The notes under the pieces: model-generated
The model's database searches: none
What the model saw: the letters and a program-made list of their open reading frames with translations, nothing else
Told to the model about the DNA's origin: nothing
Assembly (NCBI GenBank): GCA_023137195.1
Contig: JAGLPV010000032.1
Location: 1 to 35,229, forward strand
DNA from: Candidatus Aenigmatarchaeota archaeon
GTDB taxonomy: Archaea > EX4484-52
Direction: 5' to 3'
DNA length: 35,229 nt
Position numbers and translations under genes: made by a program
Shown: one piece after another, positions 17,464 through 20,333 of the stretch
Layout of the letters: each line of letters begins with the position of its first letter
How positions within the stretch are numbered: the stretch's first letter is position 1

Positions 17464-18507
17464 ATGAAGAAAAAATACTTTGCAGTCATACCGGGAAGCT
17501 TTTGCCCCCCTACAACAGGACACCTAAGCATCGTAAAAGAGGCAAGCGAAATATTTGACAAAGTAAATATTGTCTGTTCCAGAAACAGGTATAAAAAAGA
17601 TTACTGGTTCAGCCAGGAAGAATGCGCCGCAATGTGGCAGTCTATGGATTTGCCAAAGAATGCAAACGTATACACATTTGGGAAAATAAAAAAAATGTTT
17701 TCTCTCCCGTTCAAGGACTTTATTGTAATAAGAGGCATAAGAGACATAAAAAATATGCATGAAGAAAAAAGATCATTGCTGATAAGTCTGGAAGAATTCG
17801 GCGTCGATAAGTTTTTCTTTATCTTCGGAAAAGAGAAGCATAAAGACATATCTTCTGCTAAACTCCGGTACATGGCAGAATACATGGACTTAATTGGCAT
17901 GAAAGAGAAAACAAGCCCTCTTGTGATTTCATACCTGCTTGAAAAAGCTTTGAACATCAAAAAACTCTTTATCGTTTCCGGCAAGACGGGTTCGGGAAAA
18001 ACAAGGATTATAAATGAACTGTCAAAAAAACATCCGGTTGAATACATTGATGTAGATGAATTGGTAAGGGAATTGCATCCTATTGTCAAAGAACATTTCA
18101 ATGCAGATGATGTATTGTCTTTGGTAAAATCCAGACCGGATGAAGTAGCAGATTTTCTGGAGATTCCTTTGATTGAAAAAATACAGGAAAAACTAATAAA
18201 TTTGAAAAAATCAGGCCGACTGGACAAAGATACAATTTTGATGATAGAATGCGCCTATGGACTTAAATACAAAATATTCAAATACCTCGGCGGGAGGATT
18301 TTATACATAGACTCGTCCGAACTAAAGAAAAGAATAATTGAAAGAAAAACACCACAGCACATGGAATTTATCAACAAAATCCCGGGACTGAACAAGAGCA
18401 AAAAAATATGCTCCTCAAACAAACTTAATTTGATTGTCTTTAATAATGATGAGGAAATTGAAGAGGGAAAAATTGAAGAGCTTTATTTGGAATTAAAGGG
18501 ACAATAG
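17464..18507 (+). CDS. CoaD-like phosphopantetheine adenylyltransferase fused to CoaE-like dephospho-CoA kinase domain
   Basis: N-terminal 'IPGSFCPPTTGHLSIVKEASEIFDKVNIVCSRN' (TxGH), 'FIVIRGIRDIKNMHEE', 'ISSAKLR' (ISSTxxR-like); C-terminal P-loop 'VSGKTGSGKTR', 'YIDVDELVRELH' (CoaE DADxIAR-like), C-terminal 'SNKLNLIVFNND'. Confidence 0.78.
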   Translation: MKKKYFAVIPGSFCPPTTGHLSIVKEASEIFDKVNIVCSRNRYKKDYWFSQEECAAMWQSMDLPKNANVYTFGKIKKMFSLPFKDFIVIRGIRDIKNMHEEKRSLLISLEEFGVDKFFFIFGKEKHKDISSAKLRYMAEYMDLIGMKEKTSPLVISYLLEKALNIKKLFIVSGKTGSGKTRIINELSKKHPVEYIDVDELVRELHPIVKEHFNADDVLSLVKSRPDEVADFLEIPLIEKIQEKLINLKKSGRLDKDTILMIECAYGLKYKIFKYLGGRILYIDSSELKKRIIERKTPQHMEFINKIPGLNKSKKICSSNKLNLIVFNNDEEIEEGKIEELYLELKGQ

Positions 18508-19419
18508 ATTGCATGTCTTTTGCACATTGCCGCCGGTAAGATTCAAAATATCCTTTATATATTTTATAATCTCAACCACATTATACTGGAAAATGTCATC
18601 CCTGACTTCAAAATCATTTATCCATTCATCTGCTTTTTTATACAGCTTGTCTGCTTCAGCGCAGTCATTTTTTAAAAAAGCAAAAACAGCCGCCTTGTTG
18701 AAAGCAAAAATCTCATCAATCAAGGTTGCCTGCTTGTCAGCAAAAGGCTTTTTCAGCTCTGAAAGAAAGATGATTAAATCCCCGATTCTTTCTAATTTTT
18801 CGGCAGCCATCCTCAAATCCATATATCTTGTAAGGGATTCTTCTTCCTTCAAAAAATTCCAGTTTGAAAAATGCTTTCTTACATCCCTTATGAGAATAAA
18901 ATAAAAGGCAGACAACCGCTTGTCTGTCTCTTTTAATTCAGATTTTAATCTTTCTTTTTGCCGGGCATCAGAGGCGGAAAAAATCTCTTTTAATTTGTCA
19001 TACATGTTGCCTGTCAGGAAAAATATTCTCCTGAAGCATTTTTTCGGCGTGATTGTGTCGATGTCATAATTATTTACCTCTATGTGATGCTGGTCTTCCT
19101 CTATTATTTCCACGTTGATGAATTGCTCTAGGTAGTTGTGTATCTTTCTTGCCTGATTTTGGTTTTTTATCCGGATTGTAATAAAATCATATCCATATAG
19201 GTACAGCCTGAAAAAATCACGCTCGAATGATTCTTCATTGTAGAGGATTCCTTTTTGCGGGTGTTTTTTAGCGTGTTTTTGTCCTGAAAGCAAAAGCGTC
19301 CCGCTGGAGAGAACATCGTAATAAATCTTATCTCCCTTGCCTAGTTTGAATGTTTTTATCCATTCTATTGGTAGGGACACCAGATAAGAATTGCTTATTT
19401 TTTGTATTTTTCTTTCCAT
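18493..19419 (-). CDS. AbrB/SpoVT-type DNA-binding domain plus PhoU-like domain protein
   Basis: N-terminal 'MERKIQKISNSYLVSLPIEWIKTFKLGKGDKIYYDVLSSGTLLLS' swapped-hairpin AbrB pattern; helical PhoU-like C-terminus typical of archaeal PhoU homologues. Confidence 0.8.
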   Translation of the reverse strand: MERKIQKISNSYLVSLPIEWIKTFKLGKGDKIYYDVLSSGTLLLSGQKHAKKHPQKGILYNEESFERDFFRLYLYGYDFITIRIKNQNQARKIHNYLEQFINVEIIEEDQHHIEVNNYDIDTITPKKCFRRIFFLTGNMYDKLKEIFSASDARQKERLKSELKETDKRLSAFYFILIRDVRKHFSNWNFLKEEESLTRYMDLRMAAEKLERIGDLIIFLSELKKPFADKQATLIDEIFAFNKAAVFAFLKNDCAEADKLYKKADEWINDFEVRDDIFQYNVVEIIKYIKDILNLTGGNVQKTCNLLSL

Positions 19420-19430
19420 ATTAACACATA

Positions 19431-19457
19431 TTTAAACTAATTTAAACTATTTAAATA
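19431..19457. promoter_or_regulatory. Near-tandem 10-bp repeats TTTAAACTAA TTTAAACTAT TTAAATAT in divergent promoter
   Basis: Two copies of TTTAAACTAW in phase plus a partial third, lying between the divergent AbrB-PhoU and PanK-like genes. Confidence 0.45.
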
Positions 19458-19490
19458 TACTTTATATATGCCAAAAAAACATAATATCTT

Positions 19491-20333
19491 ATGGTCAAAA
19501 GCAATAAATTTGTCTCAATAGATGCAGGAGCAACAACCACCTGTTTTTACTCATCCTCTAAAATTATCACCAGAAGCACACGCAGTTTATTCGATATAAA
19601 AAAAAGGAAAATGAAAAACAACTGCCTTGAAATTTTTGAAGAATTAAAAACAAAAAAAATATACATGACGGGCGTCCTGAGCGATGTAATCGGGGAAAAT
19701 CAAACATTATTAAAAAAAATCAATGGAGAAGACATGAAGATACAATATGTCTCAGAAATAGATTCAATTGCAAAAGGCGCTTTATCATACATAAATAATC
19801 GCGCGGAAAATATAGAAACTGCCCTTATCGCCTCCTGCGGAACAGGACTGTGCCTTGTGTATTTTGATAAAGGAAAAATAACACATTTGGGCGGCAGTGC
19901 AATATGCGGCGGAACGCTCCTTGGCTCATTGCGGTTAATGCTAAGGCGAAAAATAAAAATTGAAGAACTGAAAAAATACACGCCGGAAAATTACAACCAT
20001 AGTATGGATTATGTTTTAAATGACTTTACGAAACAAACAATCGGCATGCTTCCGCCGGACACTACATTTTCAAATTTTGCAAATGTGAGCTATTATCCTA
20101 AAGAACAAAGCGAAGAGGAAATCATCTGCTCTGTGCTTAATCTTGTATCTGAAAATATAGTCTCAACAGCCAGTCTGGCAATCAAAAACACACCTGCAAA
20201 AAACATAATATTTACGGGAAATGTCATCAGATTTCCTTTTGTTGAAAGCGTGATAAAAAAATATTTGACTGATTTCAACCTGTACTTTGTAAAAGATTGT
20301 GCTGTCGTCGCAAGAGGATGCCTGATATCCTGA
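19491..20333 (+). CDS. Type II pantothenate kinase homologue (CoaW/PANK-like)
   Basis: 'SIDAGATTTCFY' (phosphate 1), 'YVSEIDSIAKGALSYI' (catalytic Glu region), 'ALIASCGTGLCLVYFDKGKITHLGGSAICGGTLLGSLRLM' matches CoaW '[37 protein letters not shown]'; 'LPPDTTFSNFANV' matches 'IPGDLTAANFGHV'. Confidence 0.8.
   Translation: MVKSNKFVSIDAGATTTCFYSSSKIITRSTRSLFDIKKRKMKNNCLEIFEELKTKKIYMTGVLSDVIGENQTLLKKINGEDMKIQYVSEIDSIAKGALSYINNRAENIETALIASCGTGLCLVYFDKGKITHLGGSAICGGTLLGSLRLMLRRKIKIEELKKYTPENYNHSMDYVLNDFTKQTIGMLPPDTTFSNFANVSYYPKEQSEEEIICSVLNLVSENIVSTASLAIKNTPAKNIIFTGNVIRFPFVESVIKKYLTDFNLYFVKDCAVVARGCLIS

Follow-up and report, generated by a model that had tools for sequence, protein, structure and literature searches.

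INTRODUCTION

Archaea are biochemically set apart by their own route to CoA, the standard enzymes of which are pantoate kinase (PoK), phosphopantothenate synthetase (PPS) and a dephospho-CoA kinase (DPCK) of the DUF359 type. In animals, the last two steps are joined in one polypeptide, COASY, in which a phosphopantetheine adenylyltransferase (PPAT) domain of the COG1019 type precedes a CoaE-type kinase. Fusions of PPAT with the arCOG04076/DUF359 DPCK are known in uncultured archaea, and Nanohaloarchaeota are among the groups without PoK and PPS (PMC6650551); in the literature searched on bacterial-type CoA synthesis in DPANN, this paper alone was directly relevant. The separate bacterial enzymes for the same two steps are CoaD (TIGR01510) and CoaE (TIGR00152), and Staphylococcus aureus CoaW and eukaryotic PANK belong to the Fumble family of kinases.

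Here we describe two ORFs in a 35,229-nt stretch of archaeal DNA (the window), which are predicted to encode a CoaD-CoaE fusion and a type II pantothenate kinase (PanK). Like COASY, the fusion would place PPAT and then a CoaE-type kinase for the last two steps in one polypeptide, but its PPAT domain is a bacterial CoaD. Its two domains fall in the superfamilies of the separate bacterial CoaD and CoaE, from which the proteins of the window genus differ by being fused, in the order CoaD-CoaE, and by strong divergence. The window PanK shares with CoaW and PANK the glycine motifs, the nucleotide-binding Asp and the position of the catalytic Glu, whereas it carries an archaeal His for Arg113 of CoaW and is the most divergent copy of the set. 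The archaeal fusion of COG1019 PPAT with DUF359 joins the same two steps, but neither of its domains is related to CoaE or bacterial CoaD, and DUF359 lies at the N-terminus in two examples from the window's order:

L045:5007-5918, minus strand: DUF359-PPAT fusion of genome G024
L046:1966-2892, minus strand: DUF359-PPAT fusion of genome G027

Adjacent PPAT and DUF359 matches were observed in G013 and G033, and G027 and G033 (the latter with 8% contamination) have matches for both kinds of fusion.

RESULTS

Two CoA genes on an archaeal contig

The window is the whole of contig C26 in assembly G000 (1.42 Mb, 57 contigs, ~85% complete). Its assignment to an archaeon in the original prediction agrees with a GGGP synthase scoring over its cut-off and with ribosomal proteins S3 and L22, all encoded in the window. 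G001, another genome from this genus, is 57% complete, and due to the degree of completeness of both assemblies gene absences in either are provisional. The two ORFs start with ATG at 17464-18507 and 19491-20333, and the features of the region are as follows:

17464-18507, plus strand: CoaD-CoaE fusion, predicted bifunctional phosphopantetheine adenylyltransferase/dephospho-CoA kinase, 347 aa (profile, PDB, fold, conservation)
17464-17913, plus strand: bacterial-type CoaD (PPAT) domain, residues 1-150 (TIGR01510, E=5.5e-17; PDB PPATs)
17512-17523, plus strand: TxGH nucleotidyltransferase motif TTGH, residues 17-20 (T17, G19 and H20 invariant in 8/8 fusions of the order)
17947-18504, plus strand: divergent CoaE-like P-loop kinase domain, residues 162-347 (hhalign E=4.6e-06; AF2 pLDDT 89; top Foldseek match DPCK 1jjv)
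17980-18003, plus strand: P-loop GKTGSGKT, residues 173-180 (G173, G178 and K179 invariant)
18049-18057, plus strand: Asp-x-Asp, D196 and D198 (D198 invariant in 21 archaeal CoaE domains)
18493-19419, minus strand: regulator-like gene with AbrB/MazE-like and PhoU-like domains, outside the pathway (PF04014 over cut-off, PF01895 just below)
19491-20333, plus strand: type II pantothenate kinase of the Fumble family, 280 aa (PF03630, NF009842, PDB CoaW)
19755-19757, plus strand: Glu89 of the type II PanK (invariant in 8 archaeal type II PanKs)

An operon of the fusion and PanK ORFs was ruled out by the minus-strand gene at 18493-19419, which lies between them; thus, the two are neighbours and not one transcription unit.

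The N-terminal domain of the fusion

Pfam CTP_transf_like matched the N-terminal domain of the fusion at E=4.6e-08, and the bacterial CoaD model TIGR01510 matched residues 7-142 with 62 bits, below the curated cut-off of 103. The top PDB sequence matches were all bacterial PPATs (3f3m, 7e-10), and the PPAT active-site positions T17, G19, H20, K45, E101 and S131 are invariant in all eight fusions. Judged from its sequence, this domain is a bacterial-type CoaD and not a PPAT of the COG1019 type.

The divergent kinase domain

In the C-terminal domain, single-sequence HMMs recognised the P-loop alone, where the dephospho-CoA kinase model TIGR00152 matched at 0.002 over residues 171-204. The CoaE family PF01121 gave no match in G000 or G001, while the fusions of G012 and G030, two genomes of the same order, pass. 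Profile alignment with hhalign against archaeal CoaE ran end to end over 163 columns (probability 86%). Moreover, for the AF2 model of the domain, built on a 21-sequence archaeal CoaE alignment, the best PDB match in Foldseek was the DPCK 1jjv (E=7.8e-07, TM 0.67), and the highest TM-scores went to DPCKs (2if2, TM 0.71), with thymidylate and shikimate kinases next at lower scores. The CoaE-rich alignment steers the fold, so that the match to DPCKs is not independent, and since other kinases follow we take it as support and not as proof. With the G001 homologue alone, pLDDT in AF2 was 48 and the model matched nothing in PDB at E<=0.001, and a two-sequence profile searched against PDB with hmmsearch returned generic P-loops only. 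The CoaD-CoaE fusion that had been predicted is supported, its CoaE part by profile-profile alignment and fold but not by PF01121.

P-loop Lys179, Asp198 and Arg290 are kept in the window domain; D198 corresponds to the CoaE catalytic Asp, D33 in Escherichia coli. The middle region is shortened, and two residues that 19 other archaeal CoaEs have in common, the lid Gln and the Glu within PLLFE, are exchanged for others in just the window and G001 copies. DPCK activity is predicted for this sharply diverged CoaE-like domain and is likely, but we do not take it as established, mainly because the CoaE homologues TK1334 and TK2192 of Thermococcus kodakarensis are without DPCK activity (PMC6650551).

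Distribution and origin of the fusion

G001 carries the fusion at full length, with about 59-60% identity to the window copy, and conservation of this kind argues that the fusion is not due to chance. One-ORF CoaD-CoaE fusions were found in 8 of 394 archaeal genomes, all from the window's order, and other archaea have coaE and coaD as separate, typically adjacent genes (G052, G073, G185, G220, G271, G288, G305, G321 and G338). The fusion is clearer in G012 and G030 than in the window; that of G012 passes both curated cut-offs (CoaD 151.5 versus 103.3, DPCK 88.8 versus 65.6). Those of G020, G021 and G033 have an extra C-terminal domain of ~200 aa:

L043:8936-10084, minus strand: CoaD-CoaE fusion of G012
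L044:3357-4508, minus strand: CoaD-CoaE fusion of G030
L145:813-2612, minus strand: three-domain CoaD-CoaE fusion (third domain motif YHT...H...FAWWFHDS)
L146:2853-4613, plus strand: three-domain CoaD-CoaE fusion with the same motif
L147:4805-6715, plus strand: three-domain CoaD-CoaE fusion with the same motif

By eye, the third domain resembles an HD-type phosphohydrolase; it has no Pfam, no NCBIfam and no significant PDB sequence match.

Among a small sample of bacterial contigs with CoaD loci there was no one-ORF fusion, and the recognised CoaD ORFs were <=210 aa. In the CoaD tree the window and G001 copies sit on a very long stem of 3.45 changes per site, and an AU test for a single clade of all eight fusions (p-AU 0.106) did not confirm one clade. 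The module had been called eukaryote-like, a description that was not supported: the CoaD domain is bacterial and the fusion is restricted to one archaeal order, and both observations indicate that the likeness to animal COASY is convergent.

The type II pantothenate kinase

The ORF at 19491-20333 matches Fumble (PF03630) at E=1.2e-14, with 54.7 bits over a cut-off of 28.5, and its PDB sequence match is S. aureus CoaW (4e-10), in line with the type II PanK originally predicted. The equivalog model NF009842 gave E=1.3e-32 with 113 bits, below its cut-off of 234, as is the G001 copy with 191. The window copy retains features that do not vary among archaeal type II PanKs, namely the Asp that binds the nucleotide, the position of the catalytic Glu and the glycine motifs, and some motifs that are conserved elsewhere have changed in part. 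Glu89 aligns with the catalytic Glu of CoaW, E70, in a CoaW sequence checked solely against the PDB alignment. On the same CoaW sequence, a His invariant in 8 aligned archaeal type II PanKs sits at the position of Arg113.

Identity between the window and G001 PanKs is 29-36%, for comparison with ~59% for PanC and 46% for CoaBC between the two genomes. The end branch of the window copy in the PanK tree is the longest among archaeal type II PanKs (5.45 versus 1.5 for G001), and the copy could not be placed. It is the sole Fumble match and the sole PanK candidate found in G000. From these matches the ORF is a type II pantothenate kinase, with its activity predicted.

Other genes of the pathway

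A full CoaBC is encoded elsewhere in G000, at C45:13190-13753 (PF04127, E=3.7e-55, with PF02441 matched too), in an overlapping operon of the order panB-panD, coaBC, panC, in which panB and panD form a single fused ORF:

L036:7497-8615 (G000, contig C45), plus strand: PanB-PanD fusion, ketopantoate hydroxymethyltransferase and aspartate decarboxylase (Pfam, PF02548 and PF02261)

The tetranucleotide composition of C45 correlates with that of the window at r=0.990. In G001, panC, coaBC and panK lie in this order in one operon, and this links type II PanK directly with CoaBC and with pantothenate. Bacterial PanC over the cut-off was found in 3 of 151 archaeal genomes, namely G000, G001 and G073. 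A PanE-type ketopantoate reductase was not found in G000, leaving a single gap in the pantothenate branch. None of these CoA genes was found in G002 and G003 of the same genus (71-75% complete).

Of the archaeal enzymes with which the original prediction had contrasted these genes, PPS (PF02006), a COG1019 PPAT over cut-off (NF001985) and a DUF359 DPCK were not detected in either G000 or G001. A type III PanK and a DPCK besides the fusion were likewise not found in either genome.

In three other genomes a TANGO2-family domain (PF05742) is linked to CoaBC. In G141 the two share one 652-aa ORF, ~200 bp from coaD, and in G033 and G008 a TANGO2-family gene directly adjoins coaBC:

L042:7631-9586, minus strand: TANGO2-CoaBC locus of G141
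L147:6741-9030, minus strand: TANGO2-CoaBC locus of G033
L151:85-2231, minus strand: TANGO2-CoaBC locus of G008

The function of human TANGO2 is not settled, and TANGO2 deficiency is responsive to vitamin B5 (PMC11179719), which makes a genomic link to CoA synthesis of interest.

DISCUSSION

We consider it likely, as one joint account, that one ORF encodes the first kinase, and the other the last two enzymes in fused form, of a bacterial-type pathway from pantothenate to CoA, which replaces the archaeal PoK/PPS, COG1019 PPAT and DUF359 DPCK in this lineage, and that bacterial CoaD and CoaE were fused in one order by an event separate from those behind animal COASY and archaeal PPAT-DUF359. What the assembly itself shows are the genes and their operons, the identities of the domains and the absences; from these we infer every enzyme activity, including that of the divergent C-terminal domain as a DPCK, and a direct passage of the intermediate from one fused domain to the other. 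Ketoisovalerate and aspartate would be converted to pantothenate by the PanB-PanD fusion, a ketopantoate reductase (no gene found) and PanC. Pantothenate would then be phosphorylated by the window PanK and carried to 4'-phosphopantetheine by the CoaBC of contig C45. The CoaD domain of the fusion would adenylylate 4'-phosphopantetheine to dephospho-CoA, and the CoaE-like domain would phosphorylate its 3'-OH to give CoA.

The divergence of both window proteins bears on other readings. The fusion may be a working PPAT whose kinase has no DPCK activity and serves a structural or regulatory role or another substrate, with DPCK coming from an enzyme that was missed or is lacking from the assembly. 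The lost Glu and lid Gln, the shortened middle region, the very long branch and the T. kodakarensis homologues without DPCK activity (PMC6650551) favour this reading, but P-loop Lys, Asp198 and Arg290 are kept, the predicted kinase structure appears closest to DPCKs, G000 and G001 yielded no second DPCK, and both species retain the full domain, so that we regard it as unlikely. A window PanK that is degenerate or changed in substrate, being now a regulator or some different ASKHA kinase, with pantothenate phosphorylated by an unrecognised kinase, would fit the longest branch of the archaeal type II PanKs, the partly altered motifs and the score below the NF009842 cut-off; it is nevertheless improbable, as the Asp for nucleotide binding, the position of the catalytic Glu and the glycine motifs are preserved, and this is the sole Fumble match in a genome without a detected type III PanK. 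A NadR-like NMN adenylyltransferase/ribosylnicotinamide kinase would have the identical order of nucleotidyltransferase and P-loop kinase, but this identity was rejected for the fusion, since the best that NadR models reach is E=0.001-0.002, within the TxGH region, compared with 5.5e-17 across the domain for CoaD, the C-terminal domain aligns to CoaE with DPCKs as the nearest folds, and the fusions of other genomes in the order are unambiguous CoaD-CoaE; we give it hardly any credence.

The original prediction had joined PanK acting on scavenged pantetheine with the fusion, giving CoA from two polypeptides and bypassing CoaBC in a scavenging lifestyle. Activity of type II PanK on pantetheine is plausible, and the nearness of the two genes is in keeping with such a route. 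The CoaA kinases of E. coli and Bacillus subtilis are promiscuous and accept pantetheine (PMC11487621). However, G000 encodes CoaBC, PanB-PanD and PanC, in one operon, and the G001 PanK shares its operon with CoaBC and PanC. Thus, there is no bypass of CoaBC and no need to scavenge pantothenate, since synthesis of the latter is encoded except for the undetected ketopantoate reductase. Pantetheine salvage by the window pair is very improbable.

Salvage of pantetheine or phosphopantetheine may have better candidates than the window in other genomes. Type II PanK occurs with a COG1019 PPAT, and no CoaBC or PPS was found, in G048, G069, G089, G109 and G129 (96-99% complete) and G148 (91%) of family f22; G048 additionally carries DUF359. 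G139 of family f64 (93% complete) likewise has type II PanK and PPAT without CoaBC and PPS, a gene set that one would expect where PanK salvages pantetheine:

L010, L011, L013-L016 and L018: type II PanK and archaeal PPAT loci of the f22/f64 genomes

G012 (93% complete), which may be a better candidate as well, G030, G020 and G021 have CoaD-CoaE with no CoaBC or PanK detected, and are possible phosphopantetheine scavengers. A further scenario, which we put forward tentatively and on which we would not rely, is a separately evolved CoA synthase that was fused once in the order and then remodelled, by change of the kinase lid and the PLLFE Glu in the window genus and by addition of the HD-like domain in G020, G021 and G033. 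Where a genome of the order shows no CoaBC and no PanK, as in G012, this synthase would by itself turn scavenged 4'-phosphopantetheine into CoA, a single protein sufficing.

On our preferred reading of a bacterial-type pathway with an independent fusion, the same two steps have been joined three times over, each time from different parts, in COASY, PPAT-DUF359 and CoaD-CoaE, and this suggests a benefit in coupling the last two steps of CoA synthesis. An archaeon with PanK need not be a scavenger, as CoaBC and pantothenate synthesis are retained here. From pantoate onward, the lineage appears to have swapped the archaeal CoA route for bacterial genes.
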